64,000 nucleotides of DNA from the NCBI RefSeq assembly GCF_009674825.1, contig NZ_WKJH01000005.1, forward strand, positions 248,001-312,000, in the 5' to 3' direction. Of the stretch, positions 5,369 through 56,900 are shown piece by piece. A model generated the notes under the pieces. The model ran no database searches. It saw only the letters and a list, made by a program, of their open reading frames with translations, and was not told the DNA's origin. Origin of the DNA: Maribacter luteus (GTDB taxonomy: Bacteria > Bacteroidota > Bacteroidia > Flavobacteriales > Flavobacteriaceae). Each line of letters opens with the position of its first letter. Within the stretch, counting starts at the first letter, position 1. Both the position numbers and the translations under genes were made by a program.

Positions 5369-6640
5369 CTATGATAATTTTGTTTTTTTCCATTGTGATA
5401 ATATGTTATTACTATACCTCCTTTTGAAAATAAACAGACAAATATTGCCTATTAAAAGGGATATTGCAGCACCATAAATTCCCATTAACGGAATTAGAAT
5501 TATATTTGCCGCTACATTAAAAACGCAAGCTAAAAGGGTAGCTTTTAAAATTTGTTTTTCATTTTCGTATCCTACGATCAAATAATGGTAAGAGAAACTT
5601 AAATTCAACAGTAAACATCCCGCTAATAAAATATAGAAAATTGGAACATTTGAATAAAGCTCGTCTTTGCCTATATAATTTAAAAAAAATGGTATAAAAA
5701 TTATTGAAAAGACCGCATAAATACCTATCAATAAGAATGTTTTATTTTTTATTGTTTTCATTCCTTTGTTAATCCCTGTCAAATCTTTTTCATGAACAGC
5801 TTGAATGATGTCAGGATACACAAAAGATATATACATAGTAAAAACCATGACATTAATTAAATTGGCCAGTTGAAAATATAAAGCGTATACACCTAAATCT
5901 ACCTTTCCCAAAAAATAAGTGATTAAGTATCTGTCTGAATACTCCATAGTTTTTAAGCAAATAGTAGATAAGAACATCGTTAACCCAACACCTATTCCTT
6001 TCTTTATCCATGAAAAATCTACTTGCGTACTGAAAAACATAGTTATTCCAGGGTAAAAACAAACACCGAGAACGAATGTTATAAAAGCGAAAAGTAACCA
6101 CAATTGTAAAATTTCTGCTATACTGATAGTGAAACCTTGATTGAAAACTAAATTAACCACAATGATACCCGCCCATATACCTGTTCTAATAAAAAGCAAT
6201 ATGTTCGCAAAAACTGGATTTCTCAAAGAAATATAAGTGCGAAAAAATTCTTGCCCCAAATGCTCGAAAATAATTAAAAAATATAACACCCAAAACGAGC
6301 CTAAGTCTATAAAAGTTATTTTATTATAAATCACCCACATAATGGGAAACAACAGGATATAGGAAAAAGAGTAAAAAATAAGAGAATTTTTTAAATAAAA
6401 AATCTTATCCAAACTACCCTTGATAATCAATCTATTTGAATAAACATAAAAATCAAATCCAAAGAATATTATCAATAATGCAACCGTTGTTGTAACCAAG
6501 GTATACTCTCCTTGGAACTCAAGGGATATTTCTTTGGTAATCAAAAAAGTCAATAGAAATCTTGACCCCAATCCCAGAAGCCTACAAAAAAGTGTAAGTA
6601 ATTTTTCAAGATTATTTTTATTTAGCATATCAATTCCCAT
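5369..6640 (-). CDS. wzx: polysaccharide flippase (Wzx/MATE-like, MVF superfamily)
   Basis: A 423-residue protein with about twelve membrane spans and the usual flippase N-terminus (LGLGSRFLLTFLITKEIS), an internal acidic YSDRYLITYFLG segment (~236-247), and late spans with MGIYGAAISLLIGN. Members move undecaprenyl-linked oligosaccharide across the inner membrane. The first ATG overlaps the pseI stop by 19 bases, and a second ATG four codons on is also possible. It is the first lipid-linked glycan handling gene after the sugar-nucleotide genes. Confidence 0.85.
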   Translation of the reverse strand: MGIDMLNKNNLEKLLTLFCRLLGLGSRFLLTFLITKEISLEFQGEYTLVTTTVALLIIFFGFDFYVYSNRLIIKGSLDKIFYLKNSLIFYSFSYILLFPIMWVIYNKITFIDLGSFWVLYFLIIFEHLGQEFFRTYISLRNPVFANILLFIRTGIWAGIIVVNLVFNQGFTISIAEILQLWLLFAFITFVLGVCFYPGITMFFSTQVDFSWIKKGIGVGLTMFLSTICLKTMEYSDRYLITYFLGKVDLGVYALYFQLANLINVMVFTMYISFVYPDIIQAVHEKDLTGINKGMKTIKNKTFLLIGIYAVFSIIFIPFFLNYIGKDELYSNVPIFYILLAGCLLLNLSFSYHYLIVGYENEKQILKATLLACVFNVAANIILIPLMGIYGAAISLLIGNICLFIFKRRYSNNILSQWKKTKLS

Positions 6641-7632
6641 CTTAAGGGTGTTCCGGCTTTTAATTCTTGACTAAATTTTTTGTTTAAAATTTCATTAAAA
6701 TATAGGGGGTGCAAGCCGTTGCCAGGTCTAATAGATTTTATATTATCTAGAGTAATCCTATCGTACTTTTTAACATCTTTTGATACAAAAATAGACCGCC
6801 TTCTATTCCTGTTTGTCTCCGTTAAAGTATAAGAAACAGAACCCAAAGCATCCTTTGCGTCTTTAACGGCGGACACCATTTCCTTAAACTCTTTTGGCTC
6901 CATTGAAAAAGCAGCGTCAATACCACCCTTTTTCCTATCCAAAACAAAATGCTTTTCTATTACCGTAGCTCCAAGAGATACCGCAACCACGGGCACGGTG
7001 CTACCAAAACTATGGTCGGACAAGCCAACTTTTACATTAAAGGTGTCTTTAAGGTTTGGTATGGTTAATAAATTTGCCATATCTGGCGTAGCAGGATACT
7101 CGGATGTACATTTTAATAAAGTAATATCAAAATTTCCTTCTTTTTCACATGTGTTCACAGCTAATTCTATATCTGCTAGACTTGCAAGCCCCGTAGACAT
7201 TATAATTGGTTTGCCTTTTGAGGCAACATAAGAAATTAATGGTATATCCGTAATTTCAGGCGAAGCGATTTTATAAAGACTAATATTTAAGTTTTCTAAA
7301 AAATCTACGCCTTCTTTATCAAAAGGAGATGAGAAAAAAATTAATCCCAGCGCTTCTGCATGGCTTTTAAGTTCCGCGTGCCATTCATATGGCAAACTAC
7401 CCTCGGTAAAAAGCTCATATAAGGTTTTTCCTTTCCATAACCCTTCTTTTCTAGGTCCAAAGAATTCATTGTCTACATCCAATGTAAGAGAGTCGGCGGT
7501 ATACGTTTGCACTTTCACAGCATCAGCTCCAGACTCAGCTATGGCATCAATGGTTTCCATTGCAAGACTTAAATCGTTATTATGATTAGCGGATAACTCC
7601 GCAATTACGAATACCTTTTCAGAATTTATCAT
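6622..7632 (-). CDS. pseI: pseudaminic acid synthase (NeuB family)
   Basis: A 336-residue protein that condenses 2,4-diacetamido-2,4,6-trideoxy-L-altrose with phosphoenolpyruvate. The NeuB barrel opens with FVIAELSANHNNDLSLA and carries ADAVKVQTYTADSLTLD, KIASPEITDIPLI, STGLASLADIE and KVGLSDHSFGSTVPV. The C-terminus (from ~280) is an antifreeze-like SAF domain (RRRSIFVSKDVKKYDRIT, SIRPGNGLHPLY). The ADSLT/FFGPR and SDH-S features and the pseB/C/F/G partners favour PseI over sialic acid synthase. It lies one base downstream of pseG. Confidence 0.92.
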   Translation of the reverse strand: MINSEKVFVIAELSANHNNDLSLAMETIDAIAESGADAVKVQTYTADSLTLDVDNEFFGPRKEGLWKGKTLYELFTEGSLPYEWHAELKSHAEALGLIFFSSPFDKEGVDFLENLNISLYKIASPEITDIPLISYVASKGKPIIMSTGLASLADIELAVNTCEKEGNFDITLLKCTSEYPATPDMANLLTIPNLKDTFNVKVGLSDHSFGSTVPVVAVSLGATVIEKHFVLDRKKGGIDAAFSMEPKEFKEMVSAVKDAKDALGSVSYTLTETNRNRRRSIFVSKDVKKYDRITLDNIKSIRPGNGLHPLYFNEILNKKFSQELKAGTPLRWELIC

Positions 7633-7633
7633 T

Positions 7634-8638
7634 TTAAATACGTTCTAAGATTTTTACTACTCTTTCTATACCATTAAAATCCAATACCATCTTGGAATTC
7701 TTGTTTAACGATCTACGGAAAATTATATCTTTTACAAATTTAGCTATAGTTGTATTAAGCTCCGTTGTTTTTATATTATCTATTAGCCCCAAATGACAAA
7801 TAGATGCCGTCTTATGCTCTAAAACCTCGGATGCATGAGCATTGGCCTGTTGATGGGCAATGCTAATAATTGGCATACCCAAAGCCATAAACTCATAAGT
7901 ACTTACTCCAAATACCGCAATAAGCATATCGCTATTATTGATGACACTAATGTCGTAAGCTAAGAAATTTACGTTTTTGGGTGTTGATTGTGGAATACTG
8001 TTATGGTGCATGTAATTTTCCCCAAAATAGAAATTAAAAGTAATGTTCTCCCATTTTAAAAAGTCAATTAGCTTATATACCATTAACATCACATTCCGTG
8101 GGTCGCTACCTCCGCAAATAATTCCTATATCATTTACACAATCATCACTTTGGATTTCCTTTAATCCAAGATTTCTGATTTTCTCATTAAAAGTAAAATA
8201 TTCAAGCCCTTGATAAATTTGAGTTTTAATATTGTTGAATTTTTCAAAAAACGATTCTTTTTGATGTAATGATGGAAGAATATATACATCTGCTAAATAT
8301 CTTGATTCACTCAGGTTCTGATAAAAAACCAACTTAGCATTGTCCTTTAATGTGTTAATATCGTTACTATCAAAATCTATAATACCATCTACATAAAGTA
8401 TCTCGTATTTACCATTTAAACATATATTGATAGTCTCCTTGCTGCTGTTCTTTTCTTGAAGTATACTATGTGGAAATTCAAAATTATCAAGAGTGTCCCA
8501 AAAACCAGATCTGGTGTGAACAAAGGTAACAGCGTATCCTTTCTGAGCTAATGCCTTGGCCAAACTATAACTTCTAAAAAAATGGCCTAAACCCACTTTT
8601 TCACCTGCATCGACCCTAAAAAGTATTTTTCTTTTCAA
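7634..8638 (-). CDS. pseG: PseG-like UDP-sugar hydrolase
   Basis: A 334-residue GT-B-like hydrolase that removes UDP from the 2,4-diacetamido altrose intermediate. Visible family features are the N-terminal FRVDAGEKVGLGHFFRSYSLA with its H-x-x-R, the nucleotide-site glycine run IGIICGGSDPRN (~172-183), and ADMLIAV-like SDMLIAVFGVSTYEFMALGMP followed by HQQANAH near residue 264. Length and gene neighbourhood match PseG. It lies 6 bases after the acyltransferase gene and 1 base before pseI. Confidence 0.88.
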   Translation of the reverse strand: MKRKILFRVDAGEKVGLGHFFRSYSLAKALAQKGYAVTFVHTRSGFWDTLDNFEFPHSILQEKNSSKETINICLNGKYEILYVDGIIDFDSNDINTLKDNAKLVFYQNLSESRYLADVYILPSLHQKESFFEKFNNIKTQIYQGLEYFTFNEKIRNLGLKEIQSDDCVNDIGIICGGSDPRNVMLMVYKLIDFLKWENITFNFYFGENYMHHNSIPQSTPKNVNFLAYDISVINNSDMLIAVFGVSTYEFMALGMPIISIAHQQANAHASEVLEHKTASICHLGLIDNIKTTELNTTIAKFVKDIIFRRSLNKNSKMVLDFNGIERVVKILERI

Positions 8639-8644
8639 AAAAGC

Positions 8645-9301
8645 TTATTTTGTTGAGCCAATAACCCTGGCGGGGCTTCCTACTACCTTGGCGTAGTCAT
8701 CTACATTTTTTAAAACTACTGCCCCTATCCCCGTAATAGACCACTTACCTAAGGTCACATACTCCAAAGTAGTTGCATTAGTTCCTAAATAGGCACCCTC
8801 CTTTAAGTGAACATCTGCCCCTATGCACGCATTATTGGCAACATAACTGTAATCGTCCAATTTTGCTCCATGACCTATTAAAGATTGTGCAAAAATCTGA
8901 ATAAAATTCCCAATTGATGTATTTGGACCTACGGATACAAAAGGCTGAATACAAACACCATATCCTATTTTAGCGTATTTAGATACCACAGCGGTAGGAT
9001 GTATAAGAGTTGCAAATCTATTCTTTGGTATTTCCAACTCAATAAGCTTAAACAAAAACTTATGATTTAACTTCACAGATATAAGGCTGTAGAAGAAATA
9101 AACATTCGAGTCTTTAAGATAATTCTGAACCGTTTCTTTATCTATTGGGCCCAAAACAGGATACCCATTAATAGGTTCCTTTTCATTATCGTTTAAAAAT
9201 CCTAAAAGTTCCCACTGCTGTTTTTCCTCATTTATATCTTCTACTGTTGACTGCACAACAGTACCGTTACCATAACCTCCTATAATAATTAACTTTTTCA
9301 T
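8645..9301 (-). CDS. NeuD/PglD-like hexapeptide acyltransferase
   Basis: A 218-residue protein. The N-terminal small Rossmann-like domain (IIIGGYGNG) is followed by a left-handed beta-helix with hexapeptide repeats from ~95 (IHPTAVVSKYAKIGYG to GSPARVIG). The catalytic His of this family is visible in SLIGHGAKLDD (~141-151). Relatives acetylate a 4-amino sugar nucleotide (PglD) or O-acetylate sialic acid (NeuD). PseH is absent here, so this enzyme may do the PseH step or decorate the finished sugar. Its start overlaps the preceding lyase stop by 4 bases (ATGA). Confidence 0.85.
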   Translation of the reverse strand: MKKLIIIGGYGNGTVVQSTVEDINEEKQQWELLGFLNDNEKEPINGYPVLGPIDKETVQNYLKDSNVYFFYSLISVKLNHKFLFKLIELEIPKNRFATLIHPTAVVSKYAKIGYGVCIQPFVSVGPNTSIGNFIQIFAQSLIGHGAKLDDYSYVANNACIGADVHLKEGAYLGTNATTLEYVTLGKWSITGIGAVVLKNVDDYAKVVGSPARVIGSTK

Positions 9302-10185
9302 TTCTTCTTCTTACTTACAAGTTCGTGCTTCTTTAGTATTTTCTTTGCTTTGGCTACAAACGGCGGACCAATAAATTTCCCATTTATAATGGCTACTCCT
9401 TTTCCTTCTCTCTTTGCCTCTTGATCGAATTCTAGGATATTTTGGGAATGTTTTACCTGCTCTGCAGTAGGTGAATAATACTGATGAACCAATTCTAACT
9501 CCAAAGGGTTTAAAACTAGCATTCCTTCAAATCCAAGTTTAACAGATAACTTTAAATTTTCCTCTAAATCTGCTAAATCTTTTACACGAACGTGAACAGT
9601 ATCAATAGGAATTACATTTTGTGCCCTTGCACCCATTGCTATCATGGCTCTTGGAGTGAACAAACTTACATGCTCCTTATCATGTATTCCTTCTAAATCG
9701 GTAATAAAATCTTCGGAACCGTAGGCCACTGCAATTACTCTTTTTGAAACGGAGCAAATTTCTTGAACATTCATTACAGCGGAGGCTGTCTCTATTAAAG
9801 GTATAATTTTAAATGTACCTGTCTCCATTCCTTTTTCGTACTCAATAGTTTCCAAAAGCTTATCGAAAAAATAAATGTCCTTCCCGGTTTTTGCTTTCGG
9901 GTACATAAAACCATCTACTCCATTAACTGAAAGTTGCGTAACATCTTTTAACAATTGGCCACTTTCCCTGTCATTAATTCTTGGAAAGATATGTTTGCCT
10001 TTAAATTTACCCTGACTTAAATATTTAAGTACCATATCTCGGGCAACTTGTTTGTTTTCTGCAGGCTGTACTGAATCCTCTATATCCAATAGTAAAACAT
10101 CTGCGGGTATTTTTGCCGCGCTTGACATTAATTTTTCACTATGGGCAGGAACAAACATTAGACTCCTCATTAATATTTTGTCCAT
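9298..10185 (-). CDS. CitE-like CoA ester lyase (HpcH/HpaI aldolase superfamily)
   Basis: A 295-residue protein with the full CitE/malyl-CoA lyase motif set: RSLMFVPAHSEKL, LLLDIEDSV, HIFPRIND, YPKAKT, IPLIETASAV and AYGSEDFITDLEG. It ends with IINGKFIGPPFVAKAKKIL, usual in this family. Members make or cleave beta-hydroxyacyl-CoA from glyoxylate or acetyl-CoA plus acyl-CoA. The Mg-binding Glu and Asp are present, so it is probably active. In this locus it probably supplies a hydroxyacyl-CoA rather than serving central metabolism. Confidence 0.85.
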   Translation of the reverse strand: MDKILMRSLMFVPAHSEKLMSSAAKIPADVLLLDIEDSVQPAENKQVARDMVLKYLSQGKFKGKHIFPRINDRESGQLLKDVTQLSVNGVDGFMYPKAKTGKDIYFFDKLLETIEYEKGMETGTFKIIPLIETASAVMNVQEICSVSKRVIAVAYGSEDFITDLEGIHDKEHVSLFTPRAMIAMGARAQNVIPIDTVHVRVKDLADLEENLKLSVKLGFEGMLVLNPLELELVHQYYSPTAEQVKHSQNILEFDQEAKREGKGVAIINGKFIGPPFVAKAKKILKKHELVSKKKK

Positions 10186-10190
10186 TCGTC

Positions 10191-10646
10191 TTATTTTTTA
10201 GAAATTAGCACTTTTCTTCTAAAACTTAATACGGGTTCCTCTTTCTGATTAAAAGCAATAGTCTCCACATAAACAATACCTCTAGTAGTATTGGACTTTG
10301 TAAGCCACTTATCTAACACTTCGGTTTTAGCATAAATCGTATCGTTGATAAAAACAGGGGCTAAATGTTTCACCTTTTCATATTCTAGATTGGCAATTGC
10401 CTTTCCGCTGATATCTGGAACCGTAATACCTACTGCCAAACTAAAAACTAATGTTCCTACCACTAATATTTTTTTGTGTTGATGGTTCTTTACGTATTCT
10501 AAATTAGTATGCACTGGATGATGGTTCATCGTCAAAAGACTAAACAGGTTATTATCACTCTCAAAAATAGTTTTGGAAGTATTGTGGTTTATTACCTCCC
10601 CAACCTTAAAATCCTCAAAATAGTTTCCTAATTCAAACGCCTTCAT
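10191..10646 (-). CDS. MaoC-like (R)-hydratase, hot-dog fold
   Basis: A 151-residue single hot-dog domain. It begins GNYFEDFKVGEVINH, as in the MaoC/mesaconyl-CoA hydratase group, and carries the active-site loop LLTMNHHPVHTN (~37-48), equivalent to the family D/N-x-N-P-x-H pattern. Members hydrate enoyl-CoA or dehydrate 3-hydroxyacyl-CoA. It is packed between two CitE-like lyase genes with gaps of 5 and 1 bases, so the three probably act in one short acyl-CoA route. The actual substrate is unknown. Confidence 0.8.
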   Translation of the reverse strand: MKAFELGNYFEDFKVGEVINHNTSKTIFESDNNLFSLLTMNHHPVHTNLEYVKNHQHKKILVVGTLVFSLAVGITVPDISGKAIANLEYEKVKHLAPVFINDTIYAKTEVLDKWLTKSNTTRGIVYVETIAFNQKEEPVLSFRRKVLISKK

Positions 10647-10647
10647 A

Positions 10648-11469
10648 TTATTTTCTGTAGTTTTTCAGTATTTTTTTTATTTTATTTAGATGAGGTTGTT
10701 CTATTATTTTTCCATCTATTAATATAGGGTTAAATTCTTTACTATTCTTTAATTCAGAAACCACCTTGTCAACTTTTAACGCAAATAAATACTCTTCCTC
10801 TGTATAGAATTGAAAACTATTCAGAATTTTATATTGGTTGGGATGTATAATGAATTTGGCATCAAAACCTTTGCTATGACCATCAATAATTTCTTTCTTA
10901 AAACTCGTCTCATTGTTAAGTTCCATGGAGGCAATATCTATTGCTGTAATCTCCCAAGCTCTGGCTAAGTATAGTATATTTTGCCGAATTATTTCTAAGT
11001 TATCCAACTGATGCTTAGCTCCTATGATTGACATAAAATCATGACTCCCCAATCCTATTCCTGTAAGTTTTCCCAAATTTTCAAAAGTCATTGACAAGAG
11101 CTCCAAATATAATTTAGGTGTTTCTACTAAAAGGATAATATCAAAAGAATCATGGTCCAAAATTTTCAAAACCAGATCCAGTTCGTCTACAGAATTAATC
11201 TTAGGTAATACATATCTAGAAAAGCCTTTGTCCATGAAAGCCTTTAGTAAAGACAAATCCAATTCTTTAGGATTTGCTAAATTATGGATTGGAACCCTCA
11301 GATAACAATCTTTGGAATTTTCTAAATTATCGAGCTCAAAAAAAAAGTCACTTCGCTGTGAAGCCTTTATGGCATCCTCAAAATCTATAATAAATGTGTT
11401 GATTTTTAATTTACGAAGCTCCTGAATCTTGTTCATTTTTGTTGCAGGTACAAAAAAAAAGGATTCCAT
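10648..11469 (-). CDS. second, divergent CitE-like protein
   Basis: A 273-residue member of the HpcH/HpaI-CitE superfamily. It has SFFFVPATKMNK, TFIIDFEDAI, CYLRVPIH, YVLPKIN, ILLVETPKL and GLGSHDFMS, and ends in LIDGKIIEQPHLNKIKKIL. In the metal-site motif, GSEDF of active lyases is GSHDF here, so chemistry may differ from its neighbour or it may be a regulatory partner. It abuts pseF with no gap. It is clearly paralogous to, but far from identical with, the lyase at 9298-10185. Confidence 0.78.
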   Translation of the reverse strand: MESFFFVPATKMNKIQELRKLKINTFIIDFEDAIKASQRSDFFFELDNLENSKDCYLRVPIHNLANPKELDLSLLKAFMDKGFSRYVLPKINSVDELDLVLKILDHDSFDIILLVETPKLYLELLSMTFENLGKLTGIGLGSHDFMSIIGAKHQLDNLEIIRQNILYLARAWEITAIDIASMELNNETSFKKEIIDGHSKGFDAKFIIHPNQYKILNSFQFYTEEEYLFALKVDKVVSELKNSKEFNPILIDGKIIEQPHLNKIKKILKNYRK

Positions 11470-12138
11470 TTATTGATTATTTAATTTATATTTTAATTCT
11501 GCCAATTTCCAATCTTCAGGGGTGTCTATGTCCTGAGCTTGCATTTCTTCTATCTCAAAAGCATATCTATTAGATCCTTTTAAACCTAGTTCAAATTTCA
11601 TCCAATAAAACATTCCCGAATCAAAAAATGCTGGTTCTAAGTCTTGAGATCTTGTACTTGCGAATTCTTGATTAACAAAAGAAACTTTACCTTTATCCAA
11701 CTTAAAAGCTCTTTGGATTGGGTATCCGAATTTTACCACAGGACGTACAGAGTCAGCTTCATTTTCTATTAAATTATCATATCCTTTTTTTATGAGTTCT
11801 ACAGTAACTAATGGTGCTGTAGGTAATATACAACAGATTGCATCAAAAAATATTTGTTTGTTAGAATAATGATTTTTAACCTCTTCTATTACATCTGCCA
11901 AGGTAGCATAATCATCTGAATTTTTAAGGGATCTGAAAAGTATCTTTGCTCCAAAACTTTTAGCTATTTTCGCTATTCCAGTATCATCAGTAGAAACTAT
12001 AACTTCATCAAAAAGGCCGCTTTTAATTGCAGCCTCTATAGAATAAGCAATTATTGGTTTGCCTAAAAAATGTTTGATATTCTTTCTTGGTATACGCTTA
12101 CTTCCTCCTCTTGCGGGTATTATTGCTAAATTAGCCAT
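11470..12138 (-). CDS. pseF: CMP-pseudaminic acid synthetase (PseF)
   Basis: A 222-residue cytidylyltransferase with the CMP-NeuA-type N-terminus LAIIPARGGSKRIPRKNIK, IIAYSIEAAI, VSTDD, CILPTAPLV (~101-109) and a C-terminal DIDTPEDWKLAE. It activates pseudaminic acid with CTP. Family and length match PseF rather than the longer NeuA proteins. It overlaps the pseC stop by 8 bases. Confidence 0.9.
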   Translation of the reverse strand: MANLAIIPARGGSKRIPRKNIKHFLGKPIIAYSIEAAIKSGLFDEVIVSTDDTGIAKIAKSFGAKILFRSLKNSDDYATLADVIEEVKNHYSNKQIFFDAICCILPTAPLVTVELIKKGYDNLIENEADSVRPVVKFGYPIQRAFKLDKGKVSFVNQEFASTRSQDLEPAFFDSGMFYWMKFELGLKGSNRYAFEIEEMQAQDIDTPEDWKLAELKYKLNNQ

Positions 12139-13276
12139 TCATGTAATTTAATACTTTTTCTATTACAAAATTATGTTCTTTATTTGTTAAGCTTGGGTAC
12201 ATGGGTAAACTAATACACTTCGAATAATAGTGTTCCGCTTGGCTTAAATCCGCAACTGCATATCCAATACCCTGGTAATAAGGAAGCGTATGTACAGGTA
12301 TGTAGTGTATTTGTGCAAAAATATTATGTGCTCTCAAGAAATCATACAATCCTTTCCTATTGTCAACTTCTATTACGAACAAATGATGTGCATTATAGGT
12401 TCCATTTGGTAGATGTTGATACTTAATAACACCCTCAAAAGCATTCTTATAAGCATCAGCAATCTCGTTTCTTCTTTTGACTCCAGCATCATTTTTACAG
12501 AGCTGGGTTATGCCTAAAGCGGACTGAATATCCGTTAATCTATAATTAAACCCTAGTTCTTGCATTTCGTAATACCAACCACCATGGTTTTCCTGCATGT
12601 TTTCCTTGGTAATACCATGTGTTCGCAACAATGATAATTTCTTATAGAGCACCTCTGAATTTGTGGTTACCATTCCACCTTCCCCACAGGCAATATGTTT
12701 AACTGGATGGAATGAAAAAACAGCAATATCCGCGTAGTTGCCATTTCCACATTTTTGTTCATTTCCTTTAGAGTCTATAAAGTAACCTCCAGGTGCGTGT
12801 GCCGCATCTTCGATTATCCAAAGATTGTGTTCGTCGGCTAAATTGCGAAATTCTTCAAGGTTCACAGGTAATCCTGCAAAATCAACGGGGATTATCCCTT
12901 TAAAAAAACCTTTGGGCTTACTCTCAATAAGTTTTTTTGTTTTTTCAAAAGACAGCAAATAAGTTTCCGAATCTATATCTGCAAACCAAACTTCACCTCC
13001 TGCATATCTAACACAGTTAGCAGATGCGGCAAATGTTATTGGTGTAGTGATTACCCGTTCTCCTGGTTTTAAACCCAAGGCTAAAACAGCTAAATGTAAT
13101 CCAGAAGTTGCATTATTAACAGCCACCGCATATTTTGCCCCAACATATTTGGCGAATTTGTCTTCAAACTCTTTGACCTTTGGTCCTTGAGTTAGAAAAT
13201 CACTTGATAGTGTTTTTACAACAGCATCGATATCATCCTGTTGAATATTCTGTCTTCCGTATGGTATGGCCTTCAT
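12131..13276 (-). CDS. pseC: PseC-like PLP aminotransferase
   Basis: A 381-residue DegT/DnrJ/EryC1 aminotransferase that aminates C4 of the keto-sugar nucleotide made by PseB. It begins IPYGRQNIQQDDIDAVVKTL with SDFLTQGP, as in PseC. The PLP pocket includes NNATSGLH (~57-64), EDAAHAPGG (~156-164) and the Schiff-base lysine in SFHPVKHIACGEGGM (~189-203). It lies directly downstream of pseB with no spacer. Confidence 0.92.
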   Translation of the reverse strand: MKAIPYGRQNIQQDDIDAVVKTLSSDFLTQGPKVKEFEDKFAKYVGAKYAVAVNNATSGLHLAVLALGLKPGERVITTPITFAASANCVRYAGGEVWFADIDSETYLLSFEKTKKLIESKPKGFFKGIIPVDFAGLPVNLEEFRNLADEHNLWIIEDAAHAPGGYFIDSKGNEQKCGNGNYADIAVFSFHPVKHIACGEGGMVTTNSEVLYKKLSLLRTHGITKENMQENHGGWYYEMQELGFNYRLTDIQSALGITQLCKNDAGVKRRNEIADAYKNAFEGVIKYQHLPNGTYNAHHLFVIEVDNRKGLYDFLRAHNIFAQIHYIPVHTLPYYQGIGYAVADLSQAEHYYSKCISLPMYPSLTNKEHNFVIEKVLNYMNG

Positions 13277-14290
13277 TTAAACCGTAAAATTAGTATCTAC
13301 ATGTTCCTTAATTAAAATTCTAAGACTTTCCACTGTTTCCCATTCATCATTTTCTCCCGAATTATAACTAAAATTCGGTGGTACGGGTTTTGCACTAAAT
13401 TCTTTTACAAAGTCTTCTAATTTCCATTTATGGGTTGAAGGCAATATAGTATAATATTTGCCTAGATCATAGGTATAGAATGAATCTGAAGGGGTAATCA
13501 TTTCTTCATGAATTTTTTCACCAGGTCTTATGCCTATAACAGGTTTTTCACATTCAGGTGCAATGGCTTCTGCTACATCCATAATCCTGTACGATGGTAT
13601 TTTAGGAACATAAAGTTCTCCACCCCAAGCATATTTCATGGCATGCATAACCATATCCACCCCTCCTTGTAAGGATATATTGAAACGTGTCATATCGGGA
13701 TCTGTGATTGGTAAAGAACCTTCTTTTTTCTTATTTATGAAAAAAGGGATTACCGACCCATTAGATCCCATAACATTTCCGTACCTCACTACTGAAAAAC
13801 GTATTGGACTGTCCCCTTTTATATTATTTGCCGCAATAAACAACTTATCCGAAGTCAATTTTGTGGCCCCATAAAGATTTATTGGTGCACAAGCCTTATC
13901 TGTGGATAGGGCAACCACTCTCTCTACACTTGTGGCAAAACATGCATCAACTACATTCTGGGCTCCACCAATATTTGTTTTTATACATTCTTCTGGATTA
14001 TATTCTGCTAAATGCACATGTTTCATCGCCGCAGCATGAATAACGTAATCCACACCTTGAAAGGCCCTAATCAATCGATTTTTATCCCTGACATCTCCTA
14101 TGAAAAATCTAATTTGTGGATATTTTTCAAACGGAAATTCCTGTGCCATTTGAAATTGCTTTTGTTCATCCCTAGAAAAGATGATTACCCTTCTTATTTC
14201 AGAATGATTTGTTAAAATATAATTTGTTAAAGCCTTTCCCAAGGAACCAGTCCCTCCAGTGATCAACAGTGATTTGCCAGTAAAATCCAT
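13277..14290 (-). CDS. pseB: UDP-GlcNAc 4,6-dehydratase, inverting (PseB)
   Basis: A roughly 337-residue extended SDR that converts UDP-GlcNAc to the 4-keto-6-deoxy altro form, the first step of pseudaminic acid synthesis. It shows the NAD motif LITGGTGSLGKAL, FSRDEQKQFQM, FIGDVRD, HAAAMKHVHLAEYNP, KTNIGGAQNVV and the Y-x3-K in NLYGATKL. A longer reading from 14359 exists, but the promoter boxes at 14338-14368 lie inside that extension and family members start at the MDFTGKSLLITGG position, so ATG 14288-14290 is chosen. It is the first gene of the pse operon. Confidence 0.92.
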   Translation of the reverse strand: MDFTGKSLLITGGTGSLGKALTNYILTNHSEIRRVIIFSRDEQKQFQMAQEFPFEKYPQIRFFIGDVRDKNRLIRAFQGVDYVIHAAAMKHVHLAEYNPEECIKTNIGGAQNVVDACFATSVERVVALSTDKACAPINLYGATKLTSDKLFIAANNIKGDSPIRFSVVRYGNVMGSNGSVIPFFINKKKEGSLPITDPDMTRFNISLQGGVDMVMHAMKYAWGGELYVPKIPSYRIMDVAEAIAPECEKPVIGIRPGEKIHEEMITPSDSFYTYDLGKYYTILPSTHKWKLEDFVKEFSAKPVPPNFSYNSGENDEWETVESLRILIKEHVDTNFTV

Positions 14291-14337
14291 TTTTCTTTGT
14301 TGAGTATTAATTAAAACCCTTATTTTCGGTCTCTTGC

Positions 14338-14368
14338 CAAAATTACGATAATTAATCACCTTAACAAT
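14338..14368 (-). promoter_or_regulatory. promoter of the pse operon
   Basis: On the minus strand ATTG (14368-14365), a 19-base spacer and TAATTTTG (14345-14338) match the Bacteroidetes TTTG-N19-TAnnTTTG promoter with one mismatch in the -33 box. Transcription would start near 14331, leaving a leader of about 40 bases before the pseB ATG. Confidence 0.65.
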
Positions 14369-47920: not shown

Positions 47921-50900
47921 ATGAAAATAAAGTCGCCCAAAATACCATTATTAGCATTTTTTCTCTTTTTAGGTATCTATACCTCATTTTCTCAAGTTAA
48001 AAACGATTTTGATGTTCGTTACGAAGCGGATATACGAGGTGAAATCACCTTTGTTGGCAATAACATTGTTAACAGACAGGTAGACCCCCATTGGGAAGGT
48101 GCTTGGGAAAGATGGGGATGGTGGTGGATATGGAACCCTCAAGCTAATTGGATTCCAGACACAATAAGTCCTAATACGCCTTATAATCTAACCGGAAATT
48201 CATCCGAAGCAAACGATAACCTCAACATGCAATATATTGATGTTGATAGCGACCCCAGTACTTTCAGCTCTAGTAGTGCCACTTTGGATATACCCGATGA
48301 AGGTTGCTCACTTGTGCGCTATGCAGGTTTATATTGGTCCGCCGTTTACGTGAATTCGGATAGAAGCAATATCGATAATATAAAATTCCAAGTGCCAGGT
48401 GGTACTTATCAAGATATCACCGCAGATGAAATTCTTTTTGACGGGGCCGGTGATACCGATTTCGGTTATTATAGTCCGTATGCCTGTTATAAAGATGTAA
48501 CTTCGATTGTTTCCGGGCTTGCTAATCCCGATGGGGAATATTTCGTTGCCAATGTACTTGCCAGCTCTGGAAGTAGTATTTCCGGAGGTGTTTCCGGTGG
48601 TTGGAACTTGGTAATCGTTTATGAAAACCCAAACCTGCCCGGTAGTAAATTCATTACGACTTTTGATGGGTATGCCGGGATTGCCTCAGCAGCCCCGGAT
48701 GTAGATATCCCTATCAGTGGTTTTACAACCCTTCCGGCACCTTTTAATGTAAATGCCAACATCGGTATCGCTGCCCTTGAGGGGGATAATCAGATTCGTG
48801 GTGATGGTTTGGAAATCAACGCAAATGGTTCTTTTAGCGCCCTTAATAGCACACAAAATCCGGCTAACAACTTTTTCAATTCGAACATTACCATTGATCC
48901 GGATATTGTAATGACCCGGAATCCGAACAGTATAAACACTCTAGGTTGGGACGTAGATTTATTCCCGGTTACCAATAGACCTAATAATAATGTTATACCC
49001 AACGATGCCACAAGTGCAACGTTAAGGCTTAGCTCTACCCAAGACAAATACGATGTATTCTTCACCTCTTTTGATGTTGAGATTATTGAACCTAATATTG
49101 TATTGGAGAAGAAAGTAAACACCCCTGGAGGTGTTGATATTACGGGACAAGGAGTGCATTTGGGACAAACGTTGGACTATGTGCTTTCTTTTCAGAATAT
49201 CGGTAATGATGATGTAGATGGTTATGTAATCAGGGATGTTCTTCCTGTAAACGTTTCGCCACCCAATGGTGTTGATTTTGTAGATTCCGATTTTGTTCTC
49301 CCTACAGGCGTAACTTACACCTATGATACCATAACCCATACCGTGGAATTTTCTATTCCAAATAACCTAGTGGAGCAAGGCTTAACCCCTTATTCCATTC
49401 GTATGCGGGTAAAAGTGGCCGAAAACTGTTTCGATTTTGTCGACGCCTGTTCCGACCTAATCCAGAATTTAGCTTACTCTACCTATCATGGAGTGGAAAA
49501 TACGGCCCAAATTACCGATGACCCCAGTGTCACGGATTTTGATGCTTGTGGATTTGTTGTCCCAGGAGCTACCAACTTTTTATTGGATGATCTTTCCGAT
49601 TGTAATTTCTCCCGTACCGTTGAGCTTTGTGGTACAGAGGCTATCCTAGATGCCGGTGATAACTTCGATGGTTATGTATGGGTAAGGGATGATAACGGTA
49701 ACAACCTTTTTGATTCTACGGATACCGTAATTACCGATGGTGATCCAGATAACGACCCGAGTACCATGTCGGTTACCGAAGTAGGAACCTATATCGTAGA
49801 TAAAATCGCGACTGACCCCTGTAAAGGCTTTAAAGAAATAATCACTGTTGTACCTTATGGCTCTGGCACTATTCCTAACCCGGTAATTGAATATTTCAAT
49901 ACCGTAAATAGTGATACCGACCCTTCCAATGACCTGGCCGGGGAAATTGTGCAATGTAGTGTTGATAATGATCTACTTCCAAAATTATTTCTTTGTGGAG
50001 TAGGGGATACAAGACAAATACAAGTAAACATACTTGACGCCCAGAGCATTATTTGGGAAAAGTTGGACGAAGGTAGTTGTACCGATGCCGGTGATGACTG
50101 CGCCAATAAAAACCTGAGTTGTACCTGGAGCCAAGAAGGGACAGGAAACAACTATCTAGTATCCAGTGAAGGTAAATATCGGTTATCGGTAACCTACCAA
50201 AATGGATGTACCAGTCGTTTTTACTTCAATGTATTCCAAAATACATTGGATATAGAATACACCAACAACGACATCATTTGTACCACTCCAGGTAATATAA
50301 CCATCACCAATCTAGGTGCGGGTTATGGGTATCAATTGGTTGATGATGCTACTGGTAACATCTTAATTCCTTTTAGTGCCAACAATGGTCCTAGTTTCGA
50401 TTTTGGAACTGGGGAAAACGGTGCTTATAGGGTACAGGTAACACAATTGGACAATGCCGGAGACCCAATTGATGATGCTTGTATATTCGAAACGCCGGTT
50501 ATCGGTATTGTTGAAAGGGATGTACAATATGAAGTAGAGGTTACCCCCGCGAACTGTACCGTTCTAGGAACGGCGACCATTCGGGTTACCAATGCCGATG
50601 CCAACTATGAATATGAAATTCGATTGGATGATGGTTCAAATAGCGGTCAAGGAACCTTGGTCGATAGCGAATCTGCCCAAACCAACAATAATTTCACCTT
50701 TACAGGTCTTAATCCAGGTGATTACATTGCTGTTGTTCGTACCGATGACGGATGTAGCTACAGCGAACAAATCACGATTATCGATGAAAATGATCTGGAC
50801 TTGGATGCCCGGGTACTTCAAGCCATTACTTGTGATCCAGGAACCATACTTATGGAATCAACAGGTGGACAAGCCCCTCATGTATACGCTATTTGGGAAT

Positions 50901-53900
50901 ATGTGAATGAAAGCGGAACAACAGTAACTTCATACGCAACGATAAATGATATTCCGTCAACCGAATTCCAAACCAATACCACTTTCGAAGTACTCGCTCC
51001 TGGCGATTACACTTTTGTTGTAGTTGACGACAATAACTGCCCGGTTTTCTCTAATATGGTTTCGATTGAACTACGGCCAGCTGCTGAATATGACCCTGTT
51101 ACCATTACCGATGTACAATGTTTCGGTGACACAACAGGTGAAATCCAATTCAATCTGACCGATGACCACGGTTATACTATAACCTATTTTTTGAGTGATG
51201 ATACCGCTACCGAAATAGATACGAATAACTCTGGTTATTTTACGGATTTAGCTGCCGGTAATTATTCGGTTCGTATCAATCAAACTTTTGGTACTGCCTC
51301 ATGCGATTATACCGAGGATATTACCATTAGTTCACCAACAGCTGCATTGAATGCTATTAGCGCTATAGTTCAAGATTATACTTGTTTACAAGATGCCATT
51401 ATCGAAGCCCAGAACGTAACAGGGGGAACCGCGCCGTATTCCTACAGTATTGACGGTGTTACATTTATTCCCGATACAACTCCAAACGCCCATAGGTTTG
51501 AGAATTTGACCAATGGCACCTATACCATCACGGTTAGGGATGCCAATGGATGTACGTTCGCAACCCCTGCCATTACGATAGAACCTCTAAATGAGCCTAG
51601 CGACCTGACATTTACCGCTACGGCCCCGAATTGTCCTACCCAGACTTCAGATGTTACCGTTACCGTAATAGACGGGAATACACCTTATGTTTTTGATATT
51701 ATTGCTCCTTCATCCATAGCTGCTACTTCCACATCCGGAACGACAGCTGATTTTGACGGACTTGCACCAGGTACGTATACCTTTAGGGTCACTGACAACA
51801 AAGGATGTACGTACACAGAAGACTTTACCATTACTCCTGTATCACCAATTACGGTTGCAGGCACCTTGGTCAATAATGTTACCTGTGTAGGGGCTTCAGA
51901 TGGGGCTGTTGACTTTACCGTAAATGGTTTTTCAAGCAGCTACGCTTACAGCATTGACGGTGCCACTTCAATAACTGCACAAACTGCAAACACTATTAAC
52001 CTTACGGGGCTTTCTGCAGGCGATTATACCATTATCGTCACCGATGAGGTAACCAACTGTACCGACACACAGACCATAACCGTAAACGAACCAACGGATT
52101 CATTGGCTTTTACTTTTAATGTTACCCCACTGGCTTGTACGGCAGATGGTTCAGTAACCATCACAGCAACCGATGGTTGGGGAGGCTATTCCTATGAAAT
52201 TACACAACCCGATGCCGTTGTCCTTGGTCCACAATCCAGTAATATATTTTCTGGACTCAATCAAACTGGAATCCATACCATTCAAGTAACAGACGCCGGA
52301 GGATGCGTTGTAACGGATACTTTTACCATTGACACACCAACTAACCCAACGATATCACTTGACGCCACTACGGACCTTTGTTTTGATCCAGCGAGTGGAG
52401 TAAGCCTAACTGCAACAACAACAAACGGAGTTGCTCCCTATTCTTATAGTTTGAACGGAGGGCCAACGCAAACCGGAAATGTATTCAATAACTTGACACC
52501 GGGCTCTTATACGGTTGTAGTTACCGATGCTTATGGATGTACTGCCACCTCCAATACGGTAATAATAGAACCACAATTATCGGTTTCCCCAGTTCTTACC
52601 AAAGAATTGGATTGCACGACCTCACCGGATGCTGTCATAGATATAACCATAAATGGTGGTTATTCCACTTTTTCATATCAAGTAAATGGTGGCGCAAGCA
52701 TCCCAGTTACAGGTAATACATTTACCTATACAACTGCTGTGGATGGTTCCTATACCTTCTTGATAACCGATAGCGAAGGTTGTACAGCCCAAACAACGGT
52801 TGTTGTAGACCCTATTACAAATCCAACAGCAACAACGAACCCAGTGAATCCAACTTGTAATGGACTTGCAGACGGAAGCGTTGAAGTGGTTATCGATTCC
52901 AACATTGGAACAGCACCTTATCAGGTGGATTTTAATGGTGGGGGACTTTCATCGCAAACCCTATACTCAGGACTGGCTGCAGGCACCTATAATTACATTG
53001 TACAGGACAGCAAAGGATGTACTTTCAGCGGAAGTGTCACCTTAACAGCTCCTGATTCGATAACTGCGGATGCAGTATTGACACAACCCTATACCTGCTT
53101 GCAAACAGGGACTATTCAAGCCCAAAACGTTTCCGGTGGAACCCCTGGTTACATGTACAGTATCGATGGTATTAATTTTGTGCCTTCGGATACCTTTACC
53201 GGACTTACCGATGGTACCTATACCATTACCATAAGGGATGCCAACTTATGTACCTTCGTTACGAATGTGGTCACGATATTGCCATTGGATCCCCCAACCG
53301 ATATATCCTTTGTTGCCACACCTCCAAATTGCCCTACGGAAACTTCCGACGTTACCCTTACAGTAACAGGGGGTACAGGAGCAATTGCCTATGAAATTAC
53401 AGCTCCAGCGGCTGCAACCACAAATATTTCAGGTGCAACTACTGGTGTATTTGCCGGACTTGCTCCAGATACCTACACCTTCTTGGTCACTGATGCCAAC
53501 GGTTGTACCTATACCGAAAATTATACGATAGACCCAGTTACCCCAATTGATGTTGTAGGGGTATTGGTCAACAATGTTTCCTGTATGGGAGCAGCTGACG
53601 GTGCGATAGACTTTACCGTAAGTGGCTTTACCACATCGTTCCAATACACTATTAATGGTGGTACACCGGTAACAGGTCAAACAATTGCAACAATCAATCA
53701 AACCGGCCTGATCGCGGGTGTTTACACGATTATAGTTACAGACGAAACAACGAATTGTACCAGTACCACCACAATCACGGTAAGTGATCCACAATCAGCA
53801 TTGGTCATCGACAGTATTGTACCTACAGACCCAACATGTTTGGATTCTGGTTCGGTTACCGTTAATGTTTCGGGAGGATGGGGCAATTATTCTTATGAAT

Positions 53901-56900
53901 TCATTGACCCAAGTTCGGTACACACAACGAATTCCACAGGAATCCTTAACGGGCTTACAGATACTTCCGCGGCCTATACGGTGAATGTTACCGATGCCAA
54001 TGGATGTACGATTACCGATAGTTTTACATTAAATCCAGCTGTTGCTCCGGTGTTAAGCGTTAGTGCGAACAGTCTATGTTATGATAGTACTACAGGACTC
54101 ATATTGACCGCTAATGTTACTTCAGGTGGAACGGCTCCATTTCAATATAGATTGAATGGCGGAGCGTACCAAAGTGAAGCTGATTTTACTGGTTTGGCAC
54201 CTGGAAGCCATACCGTTGAAGTAATAGATAGTAAAAACTGTTCTGCATCAGCCACTATCGATGTATTCCCAACCTTGGCAGCTTCTGCTAACTTGGTCAA
54301 AGATCTTGATTGTAGCGCAACACCGGATGCTGAAATAAGTATTTCAGTAAGTGGTGGAAACCCAACCTTCAATTATGAAGTACTACGGGATGGTAGCTCT
54401 GTACAAGCCAGTACAGCTGTTCCTTCCAATCCGTTCTCATATACCACCACAACGGCCGGTACCTATGAATTTATAATCACGGATACGGAAAGTTGTACCG
54501 TGACCACAAATCAAGTGGTGATAACAGCCAATAATCCGCCTAACGTTGTTGAGGTAGTTGCCAACCCATTATGTACTACAAGTGCGGATGGTAGTGTAAC
54601 CTTAAATATTACCGGAGGTACAGCACCTTATCAGATCGTATTCGATGGTAGTGCCCCTTCAACACAAACCACCTATGCCGGTTTGGCTGCAGGCACCTAC
54701 AATTATACGGTTACCGATGCCAAAGGCTGTGTAACCAATAATAGCGTAGATTTGATTGCTCCTCCTGTCCTCGTGCCAGGAACCATTGACGTTGTTCAGG
54801 ATTATACATGTATCAATACCTCAGCAACCTTACAAGTTATAAATTACTCTGGTGGAACTCCAGGATACACCTATAGTTTGGATGGTGTCAACTTCCAAGT
54901 ATCGGATACTTTCAATACAGGAATTACAGCAGGCACTTATACCATTACCGTAAAAGATGCCAATGGATGTATAGCAATTACCCCAGCCGTTGTAATAGAT
55001 CCGCTGGACCCACCAACAGATCTGACATTTGTTGCCACGGCACCAACCTGTCCTGCCATAAATTCGGATGTAACAATTACCGTTATTGACGGCAATGCAC
55101 CATTTAATTATGAAATCACGGCTCCCGCTGCTGCAACTACCAATGTAACAGGGGCAACAACAGGCGTGTTTATCGGTTTGGTTCCTGGAACATATACCTT
55201 CAAGGTGACCGATGCCAAAGGATGTGAATTGGAAGAAAGCTATACCGTGGTAGATATACCCCAAGTAACGGCTATTTCCCAATTAACCAATAACGTAAGT
55301 TGTTTTGGTGCGGCTGATGGTGCGTTTACCTTTACGGTCAGTGATTTTGCAACTACCTATAGTTATACGGTTGAAAACAGTGCATCCACTGTTATACTAT
55401 CGGATAATACAGTGAATACAATTACTCCTATTCCAGTATCTGGTTATCCAGCCGATACGTATACGGTAACCATTACGGATGATACAACCAACTGTTCCAC
55501 AACGACCAGCATGGTTATCGAAAATCCGCCAGCTGCGTTGGATTTCACCTTTACCAATACACCTGTTACCTGTATCCAAAATGGAAGTATTACCGTTACA
55601 GCCACAGATGGATGGGGTAGTTATGAATATCAATTGGAAAATACGGTTGGTCCTACCATAGTGTATGCCTACCAAGGTTCAAATACATTTAACAATGTTC
55701 CCGCGGGTACCTACAATATTTATGTACGTGATGCAGGTGGATGTATCATTGATAAACCCATTACCTTAGACCCTGCTGAAACCCCGACAATTGCGTTGGA
55801 ACCAGCAACGGATTATTGCTATGATGGTACTGACCAAGCGTCATTGGTAGTAAGTATTACCGATGGAGTCGCTCCTTACACCTATACCATGAACGGTGGG
55901 GCACAAACGGCTGTCGTTGGTAATCCATTTACCATAGCGAACCTTACTCCAGGCACATATGATATTCAAGTTACAGATGCCTATGGTTGTGTGTCGAATG
56001 CGCTTAACGGTATCCTTATCGAGCCTCAATTGGCTGCAACGGCATCATTGACTAAGGATTTATTTTGTATTAGTGATGCAATAATTGATGTAACTATTTC
56101 TGGTGGGTATACCCCATACGCAAACTATCAAGTACAATTCAATGGTGGTGGCTATGGTGCAACCACAGTCATAGCAGGAAGTACCTTTACCTATAATGGG
56201 GCGGCAGCCGCAGGAACTTACCAGTTTTTGATCACCGATGCCAATAATTGTACGGTTGAAACCAATGAAATCAATATTACCCCAACAGTCACTCCTCAGG
56301 CAACTCCTGTCGTAACCGATGTAGCTTGTTTTGGAGGGGCTGACGGCTCTGTATTTATCGATGTGGACCCCAATTTCGGAACCGCTCCTTATACGATAAG
56401 TTTTAATGGTAGTGCATTTACCTCAACCACAACGTATTCCGGACTTACTGCAGCTACTTATCCTTTTGTGGTGAGGGATGCAAGAGGTTGTGAGTATTCC
56501 AGTGATGCTACAATAGGGGAACCTGTCCAAATTATTGCGGGAATAACTTCTAGGGATGTAACCTGTAGTAACGTTCCTGGTGGAGGCAATGTTCCTGGTG
56601 GCGTGGATGTTACCATTACATCCGGAGGTGTTGCCAACTTTACGTATACACTTTATGATAGTGCTAATAATATTGTTACCCTATCCAGTGGAGATCCTAA
56701 TCCTGCAACATCTGCCAGTACCACACATTCTTTTGATGGTGTTGATTTTGGTGATTACTATGTACGGGTTGTCGATGCCAACGGTTGCGAAAGTGACTTA
56801 GGATCGGTACGTGTACTATCGAACCCATATTTAAGCATGACCGCATTTATTCCTCCCCCAGATTGTCCTACAGGAGGTACAGCGCAAATAACAGCGTCTG

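Follow-up and report, generated by a model that had tools for sequence, protein, structure and literature searches.

A lyase-hydratase cassette in a Maribacter luteus pseudaminic acid operon as a candidate private acyl-donor module for cell-surface amino sugars

The window analysed here, a 64,000-nt stretch of Maribacter luteus DNA (assembly GCF_009674825.1, contig NZ_WKJH01000005.1, positions 248,001-312,000 of the forward strand), holds a minus-strand pseudaminic acid (pse) operon in which genes for two CitE-superfamily proteins (CitE1 and CitE2) and a MaoC-type hydratase lie beside a gene for a NeuD-like acyltransferase. That this cassette provides a private acyl donor for sugar decoration is well supported. 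The fuller reading, in which we have moderate confidence, is that MaoC and CitE1, joined by CitE2 where it occurs, form an acyl-coenzyme A (acyl-CoA) module whose product the NeuD-like enzyme would transfer to the 4-amino group of the sugar made by PseC. Comparison among loci establishes the gene content, the conservation, an exchangeable position in pse operons, and a Gly/Glu signature at a lid position of the CitE proteins that is held to be catalytic; which acyl group is made, whether the enzymes run in the synthetic direction, which nitrogen accepts the group, and what CitE2 does are inferred. The genes and positions concerned are as follows.

9298..10185, minus strand: CitE1, CitE-superfamily protein of 295 amino acids with Gly replacing the lid Asp (PF03328, 140.2 bits)
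9367..9369, minus strand: codon of CitE1 Gly273, the site of Asp299 in Rhodobacter sphaeroides malyl-CoA lyase (from alignments)
10191..10646, minus strand: MaoC hydratase/dehydratase of 151 amino acids, nearest to RipB and mesaconyl-CoA hydratase (PF19315, 64.8 bits; PF01575, 61.9 bits)
10648..11469, minus strand: CitE2, divergent CitE-superfamily protein of 273 amino acids with lid Glu (PF03328, 50.3 bits)
10699..10701, minus strand: codon of the CitE2 lid Glu257 (from alignments)
8645..9301, minus strand: NeuD/PglD-like hexapeptide acyltransferase, proposed N4-acyltransferase replacing PseH (TIGR03570, 149.5; cut-off 160.8)
11470..12138, minus strand: pseF, pseudaminic acid cytidylyltransferase (TIGR03584, 262.4 bits, above cut-off)
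12131..13276, minus strand: pseC, aminotransferase producing the 4-amino sugar for acylation (TIGR03588, 465.2 bits, above cut-off)
13277..14359, minus strand: pseB, UDP-GlcNAc 4,6-dehydratase (inverting) (TIGR03589, 493.7 bits, above cut-off)
7634..8638, minus strand: pseG-like UDP-sugar hydrolase (TIGR03590, 88.1 bits, below cut-off 153.55)
6622..7632, minus strand: pseI, pseudaminic acid synthase (TIGR03586, 461.8 bits, above cut-off)
5369..6640, minus strand: Wzx-type flippase, which probably exports the completed unit (PF01943, 20.3 bits; cut-off 28.2)

Read from the open reading frames (ORFs), the gene order is pseB-pseC-pseF-CitE2-MaoC-CitE1-NeuD-like-pseG-pseI-wzx. A first-pass annotation of this DNA had placed CitE2, MaoC, and CitE1 between pseF and the acyltransferase gene with gaps of 0-5 bases, and the ORF coordinates and Pfam matches, PF19315 for MaoC included and all above cut-off, uphold this: the gaps from pseF to CitE1 measure 0, 1, and 5 bases, after which a 4-base overlap joins CitE1 to the acyltransferase gene. 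The identity of the operon is given by PseB, PseC, PseF, and PseI, all of which score above their NCBIfam cut-offs; the PseG-like protein scores below its own. The acyltransferase exceeds the Pfam cut-offs for Hexapep and PglD_N and falls just short of that for TIGR03570 (E 9e-44). Genome-wide, HpcH_HpaI matches no gene besides these two CitE genes, and no PseH match passes the cut-off; there are seven weak ones, the best (48.9 of 93.1 bits) on another contig.

The cassette recurs well beyond this genome. Among 299 genomes of the window's family (Flavobacteriaceae), 120 contain some MaoC match, and five, the window's included, contain the close type (at least 69% identity). The other four close-type loci (L031-L034) have the order CitE2-MaoC-CitE1-NeuD-like; L031 is a pse operon, and L032-L034 lie near amino-sugar genes (DegT aminotransferases), with an additional RmlA in L033 and L034 by sequence reading. 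In L031 (6296-7287 and 9329-9988, minus strand) PseG is split across two frames and CitE2 is short, the operon being otherwise similar. A scan of genome contigs with a MaoC alignment gave 214 relatives, and we read the loci of the best 80 (L048-L127), a set with many metagenome assemblies and some near-duplicates (L049/L050; L112 repeats G094), so that the counts below are of loci and not of independent events. The 80 loci come mostly from Bacteroidota, and also from Cloacimonadota, Ignavibacteriota, Balneolota, Planctomycetota, Bacillota, and Thermodesulfobacteriota. CitE1 is found near MaoC in 79 of them, adjacent in 78 and separated by one gene in L126; L098 stops at a contig end. A NeuD-like hexapeptide acyltransferase lies no more than seven same-strand ORFs away in 71, and other neighbors include a DegT aminotransferase (57 loci), a PseB-like short-chain dehydrogenase/reductase (SDR; 33 loci), and an FdtA-like protein (12 loci; one member confirmed by Pfam). 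At least one sugar-pathway gene, counting these neighbors and the RmlA and Pse markers, is present in 77 of the 80, the exceptions being L056 (a 3.8-kb contig), L067, and L124. Because it recurs in several phyla, the arrangement is not due to chance.

Pseudaminic acid is one setting among others. Seven of the 80 are pse loci, and a PseI/NeuB-like gene occurs in no other (within at most 8 kb on each side, some contigs being shorter); with the window and L031 this makes nine pse loci with the trio or nearly so, L061 having no detected CitE2. The first-pass annotation had proposed a private acyl donor for the nonulosonic acid. Its link to sugar acylation stands, with sugar-pathway genes in 77/80 loci and a NeuD-like gene in 71/80, but its link to nonulosonic acids does not carry over (7/80). 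It had also named equally frequent occurrence away from nonulosonic acid loci as the outcome that would speak against it and, taken literally, this is what the comparison gives: the cassette lies mostly elsewhere. We thus reject a cassette specific to pseudaminic acid.

Within pse operons, the cassette occupies a position that other genes fill in related genomes. PseI scores above cut-off in 24 of the 299 family genomes, two of which carry the trio (G000 and G190); leaving aside G016 and G079, on short contigs, we read the other 20 pse regions over 9-19 kb. None of the 20 has a CitE match, and their single MaoC match is remote (25% identical, in L161). Instead, 18 hold a GNAT acyltransferase or a formyltransferase: Pfam identifies formyltransferases in L158, L159, L160, L163 (fused to PseG), and L172, PseG-fused GNATs in L162, L165, L170, and L171, and further GNATs in L167 and L168 (the latter with a KASIII alongside). 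A single stand-alone GNAT type accounts for seven of the 20; a profile built from six of these, which misses some kinds of GNAT, has no match in the nine cassette pse loci. Of the two other regions, L175 shows no GNAT or formyltransferase in the four genes preceding pseI, and L177 sits at a contig end. Because 18 of the 20 other family pse regions hold a GNAT or formyltransferase, the trio with its NeuD-like gene looks like one of several exchangeable modules for N4 acylation. These alternatives resemble the cassette in belonging to the same operons and to the presumed N4-acylation step, and differ in presumably transferring acetyl or formyl groups or employing KASIII, with no lyase/hydratase pair. 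Two pse loci have arrangements of their own: in L168 (10301-12120, minus strand) the KASIII and GNAT genes stand between a PseG-like gene and pseI, and in L161 (10271-10690, minus strand) the remote PF01575 MaoC stands beside two GNAT genes and may represent a further route to a private hydroxyacyl donor.

The donor genes and the acyltransferase behave differently from one sugar context to another. Relative to the window's proteins, CitE1 has a median identity of 72% in the seven pse loci and 63% in 72 non-pse loci. The nearest NeuD-like protein has a median of 78% in the seven pse loci (range 30-89), above PseF (61%), PseI (60.5%), and PseG (45%) in the same loci, and only 32%, with a maximum of 51%, in 65 of the 73 non-pse loci. 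The family sample repeats this: in the pse locus L031, CitE1 and the NeuD-like protein are 76% and 80% identical to the window's, and in the non-pse L032, L033, and L034 the values are 76, 71, and 42% for CitE1 and 34, 39, and 32% for the NeuD-like protein. The acyltransferase thus follows the sugar and the donor enzymes stay, as would be expected if one and the same acyl donor came from MaoC and CitE1 throughout, with the acyltransferase adapted to each sugar. The acyl group could be made in this way and yet end up in an O-linkage, on a different sugar of the repeat, or on the polymer, while an unlinked GNAT acetylates N4. In favor of this, the genome has seven weak PseH-model matches, NeuD enzymes are sialic acid O-acetyltransferases, and one pse locus, L100, has an extra formyltransferase-like gene. 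However, none of the seven matches reaches the PseH cut-off or lies inside the window, the NeuD family also includes N-acetyltransferases of the PglD type, and eight of the nine pse loci with all or nearly all of the trio have a NeuD-like gene that adjoins pseG and is at least 77% identical to the window's. We therefore consider attachment elsewhere to be quite unlikely.

Both CitE proteins belong to the CitE superfamily by PF03328 scores above the cut-off (25 bits) and by the fold of their AlphaFold models. The CitE1 model (predicted local distance difference test score, pLDDT, 94.2) has R. sphaeroides malyl-CoA lyase (4l9y, TMq 0.83) as its top PDB match, and the CitE2 model (pLDDT 90.7) has Mycobacterium tuberculosis CitE and human CLYBL. 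In this superfamily, one study describes a C-terminal lid that covers the active site of the neighboring subunit and supplies an Asp (Asp299 in R. sphaeroides malyl-CoA lyase), held to handle the acyl-CoA proton; its authors call this Asp conserved throughout the superfamily, except for a Glu in a malyl-CoA thioesterase cluster (PMC3832036). In our alignment, 84 of the 85 sequences labelled CitE1 have Gly at the lid position (the exception, from L103, is an additional protein of Glu type), and all 26 CitE2 sequences have Glu. Other active-site residues are retained: all 85 CitE1 and all 26 CitE2 keep both metal ligands (Glu and Asp) and the catalytic Arg, and the Glu-Asp pair is present in 85/85 CitE1, with Asp replaced by Glu in one of the 26 CitE2. 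Of 296 genomes sampled across the phylum, 38 had a CitE match, and we read one locus in each of the 30 best-scoring: the seven cassette-type loci, the window among them, all have the Gly lid, and the other 23 all have Asp. A NeuD-like gene falls inside the locus (about 3.9 kb) in six of the seven Gly-lid loci (window included) versus none of the 23 Asp-lid loci, three of which are rip-like MaoC-CitE pairs (L186, L188, and L201). In a tree of 50 chosen sequences, midpoint-rooted and with some long CitE2 branches, each lid class lies on one side of a branch (support 99/97 for Gly, 100/99 for Glu, and 98/90 for Asp). The cassette CitE proteins are probably a distinct biosynthetic branch of the superfamily.

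The mechanism that we favor would run as follows. Because its metal site is intact, CitE1 could bind a metal-held 2-oxo acid (glyoxylate or pyruvate) and join it to an acyl-CoA unit through a C-C bond. MaoC would then interconvert the hydroxyacyl-CoA and the enoyl-CoA by reversible dehydration, and the product, we infer, is probably a malyl-, citramalyl-, or methylmalyl-type acyl-CoA or its dehydrated form. The NeuD-like enzyme would move the acyl group onto N4 of the PseC product, the step of PseH elsewhere, so that it would end up on N7 of pseudaminic acid. At non-pse loci, the same donor module would serve a different acyltransferase matched to another amino sugar. How CitE1 would form its enolate without the proton-abstracting Asp is addressed by a tentative and rather doubtful extension of this scheme, in which CitE1 is the decarboxylative counterpart of malyl-CoA lyase, using malonyl- or methylmalonyl-CoA plus a 2-oxo acid. 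The enolate would arise by decarboxylation of the malonyl-type CoA and then add to the 2-oxo acid, much as KAS enzymes relate to thiolases, and the reaction would therefore be irreversible and biosynthetic. If true, this would make the cassette a 'mini-polyketide' system based on CoA and devoted to sugar acyl groups. The missing lid Asp is both the chief reason to doubt ordinary lyase chemistry and the chief one to suspect something new of this sort. A methylmalonyl/propionyl-CoA-type carboxyltransferase beside MaoC-CitE1 in three of the 80 loci favors such malonyl-type use, although it is suggestive only: L086 (TIGR01117, 716.7, below the cut-off of 998.8), L126 (PF01039, 528.8 bits), and L099 (by sequence cluster). 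Two loci have further genes next to the module. L119 (3137-10790, plus strand) combines MaoC and two CitE1 with an AMP ligase, a carrier protein, a KASIII, and two SDR-like proteins (one of them run against Pfam as an SDR), and L099 (9336-12954, plus strand) has the carboxyltransferase-like gene and a flavin mononucleotide (FMN)-oxidoreductase gene immediately past CitE1. Given these neighbors, variants that modify the acyl group further probably exist.

Several points weigh against this reading in whole or in part. First, CitE2 was detected at only 22 of the 80 loci and not in the pse locus L061, so that the functional unit is something other than the trio; the core is MaoC, CitE1, and an acyltransferase. 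On the same counts, we dropped CitE2 as an obligatory partner lending its lid Glu to CitE1, although a divergent or unlinked CitE2 may have gone undetected. Second, both proteins lack the enolate-protonating lid Asp of malyl-CoA and citramalyl-CoA lyases, having Gly (CitE1) and Glu (CitE2) in its place, so that standard malyl-CoA lyase chemistry may not apply to CitE1, which is not an ordinary lyase of this type. Third, the even conservation of MaoC (73% identity to the window's in the seven pse loci versus 71% in 73 non-pse loci) proves little, because the 80 loci were chosen through MaoC similarity. Fourth, the pse locus L100 departs from the pattern: its acyltransferase nearest MaoC is 30% identical to the window's, one further away is 63% identical to its nearest reference, and a formyltransferase-like gene follows CitE1. 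Fifth, NeuD-type hexapeptide genes are common, with one in eight of the 20 trio-less pse regions (at most 19 kb each). Finally, we found no activity, metabolite, or glycan data on cassette members. Where CitE2 does occur, it is mostly in loci of the Flavobacteriia, Pontibacter, and Balneolaceae types, and it was not found in most Bacteroidales loci.

The MaoC protein is placed in its family by PF01575 (61.9 bits against a cut-off of 27) and, in the alignment, by Asn41 and the active-site His46 in 81/81 sequences; the Asn-His pair is common to the rip-like L186, L188, and L201, and 12 of 17 controls carry Asp-His. Such a hydratase could act alone, turning an enoyl-CoA into a 3-hydroxyacyl-CoA donor such as 3-hydroxybutyryl-CoA, as an enoyl-CoA hydratase supplies the hydroxyacyl donor of anthrose, with the CitE proteins serving as thioesterases, scaffolds, or regulators. 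The invariant Asn-His pair, the absence of a lid Asp from CitE1, and the different MaoC that accompanies GNATs with no CitE in the pse locus L161 are all consistent with this. So are the lid Glu that CitE2 shares with the malyl-CoA thioesterase cluster (PMC3832036) and the hydroxybutyryl groups known on nonulosonic acids (PMC6388019). Yet the placement of CitE1 beside MaoC in 79/80 loci and the retention of its metal and Arg residues in 85/85 would be unexpected for a dead protein, and the cassette MaoC is closer to RipB and mesaconyl-CoA hydratase, enzymes whose substrates are dicarboxylic acyl-CoAs. We give MaoC acting alone a small but appreciable probability.

The same affinities could point to catabolism, that is, to a RipBC-like or mesaconate pathway lying in the operon by chance and working in the cleaving direction. 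The NCBIfam models nearest to the cassette are RipB, RipC, and CitE, and the itaconate-degrading rip operon likewise has a MaoC hydratase (RipB) adjoining a CitE-family lyase (RipC); the phylum also contains MaoC-CitE pairs of rip-like type (L186, L188, and L201), and in L096, alone among the 80 loci, CitE1 is followed directly by a CoA-transferase gene that partly resembles RipA (32% over 195 amino acids). Against this, the scores lie far under the cut-offs (132.7 of 340 for NF038241, RipB; 123.8 and 79.7 of 375 for RipC), outside RipB/RipC membership. The context is also sugar-related (77/80 loci) rather than catabolic, the lid is Gly or Glu rather than Asp with the lid types forming separate tree groups, and the rip-type locus of Salmonella houtenae has both a RipA-like gene and a lid Asp. 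A BLASTP search with the RipA-like protein of L212 matched L035, L212 itself, and, partially, L096; nothing was matched in the window, in L031-L034, or in the other 79 loci. A catabolic role is therefore very improbable, and we reject the cassette as a rip operon on its sub-cut-off RipB and RipC scores and on a RipA-like match that is partial and found in 1/80 loci. The partly RipA-like gene of L096 (9367-10848, plus strand) could activate a free acid there or signal a catabolic variant.

Private acyl-donor modules in sugar operons are of an already known kind, further examples being those for tetronate in Vibrio cholerae O1 and for modified viosamine in Pseudomonas syringae. The anthrose operon shares with our cassette a private hydroxyacyl-CoA and a dedicated N-acyltransferase within an amino-sugar operon, and differs in using an enoyl-CoA hydratase with no CitE-type lyase. 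Malyl-CoA lyase/mesaconyl-CoA hydratase pairs of the 3-hydroxypropionate bi-cycle and the ethylmalonyl-CoA pathway resemble it in the CitE1 fold, PF19315, and the metal and Arg residues, but not in the lid Asp, which is replaced in the cassette, nor in its glycan-operon setting; the cassette MaoC is also a single-domain protein of 151 amino acids, versus two-domain chains of 352-356 for the mesaconyl-CoA hydratase type. CitE2 can be likened to the malyl-CoA thioesterase cluster by its lid Glu (PMC3832036). The anthrose operon, antABCD, comprises four genes (PMC10050317), and 3-hydroxy-3-methylbutyryl-CoA and AntD are cited in connection with it (PMC8141488). Bacterial surface sugars are reported to carry unusual malyl, 2-hydroxyglutaryl, and 3,5-dihydroxyhexanoyl groups, including malyl amides on amino sugars of Pseudoalteromonas and Vibrio and, in Flexibacter maritimus, a 2-hydroxyglutaryl amide and a hydroxybutyryl nonulosonic acid (PMC3210612). 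That such malyl and hydroxyacyl amides are known speaks for the product we favor. We found no link between these reported amides and the cassette, and our searches of open-access papers yielded no description of the cassette, of a lyase-hydratase route, or of a Gly lid class, and no route to malyl-type sugar acyl groups. The cassette stands where a gene for standard acetylation would be looked for, and it appears to make an unusual acyl group and to attach it to cell-surface amino sugars. It offers a direct test of how such a group arises and, if many clusters share the donor module, would indicate which of them should bear that group. It also marks a probable biosynthetic branch, with a clean change at a putatively catalytic lid position, in a superfamily whose members are described as lyases, malate synthases, or thioesterases.

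Phage records held one match and plasmid records 365, all below 60% identity, with a NeuD-like neighbor in none of the five places opened. Some further proteins recur at the 80 loci. The cluster labels RmlA, flippase, glycosyltransferase, CapK, and ATP-grasp rest on sequence reading or sub-cut-off matches. An ATP-grasp-like protein recurs near NeuD-like-MaoC-CitE1 in 23/80 loci and a protein of about 317 amino acids in 15/80 (both upstream of the NeuD-like gene, in loci such as L103, L126, and L064), the one member tested having no Pfam match. Pfam likewise gave no family for the recurring neighbors at L064 6379-7308 and for a 427-amino-acid protein of L073, first read as CapK-like. In the window itself, the Wzx-type flippase has a 91% identical counterpart among the neighbor genes of L048, a syntenic operon of Maribacter antarcticus DSM 21422, and Rfam has no matches. 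Far from the operon, an open reading frame of 5360 codons or more (47921-64000, plus strand) reaches past the window end and probably encodes a giant surface protein.

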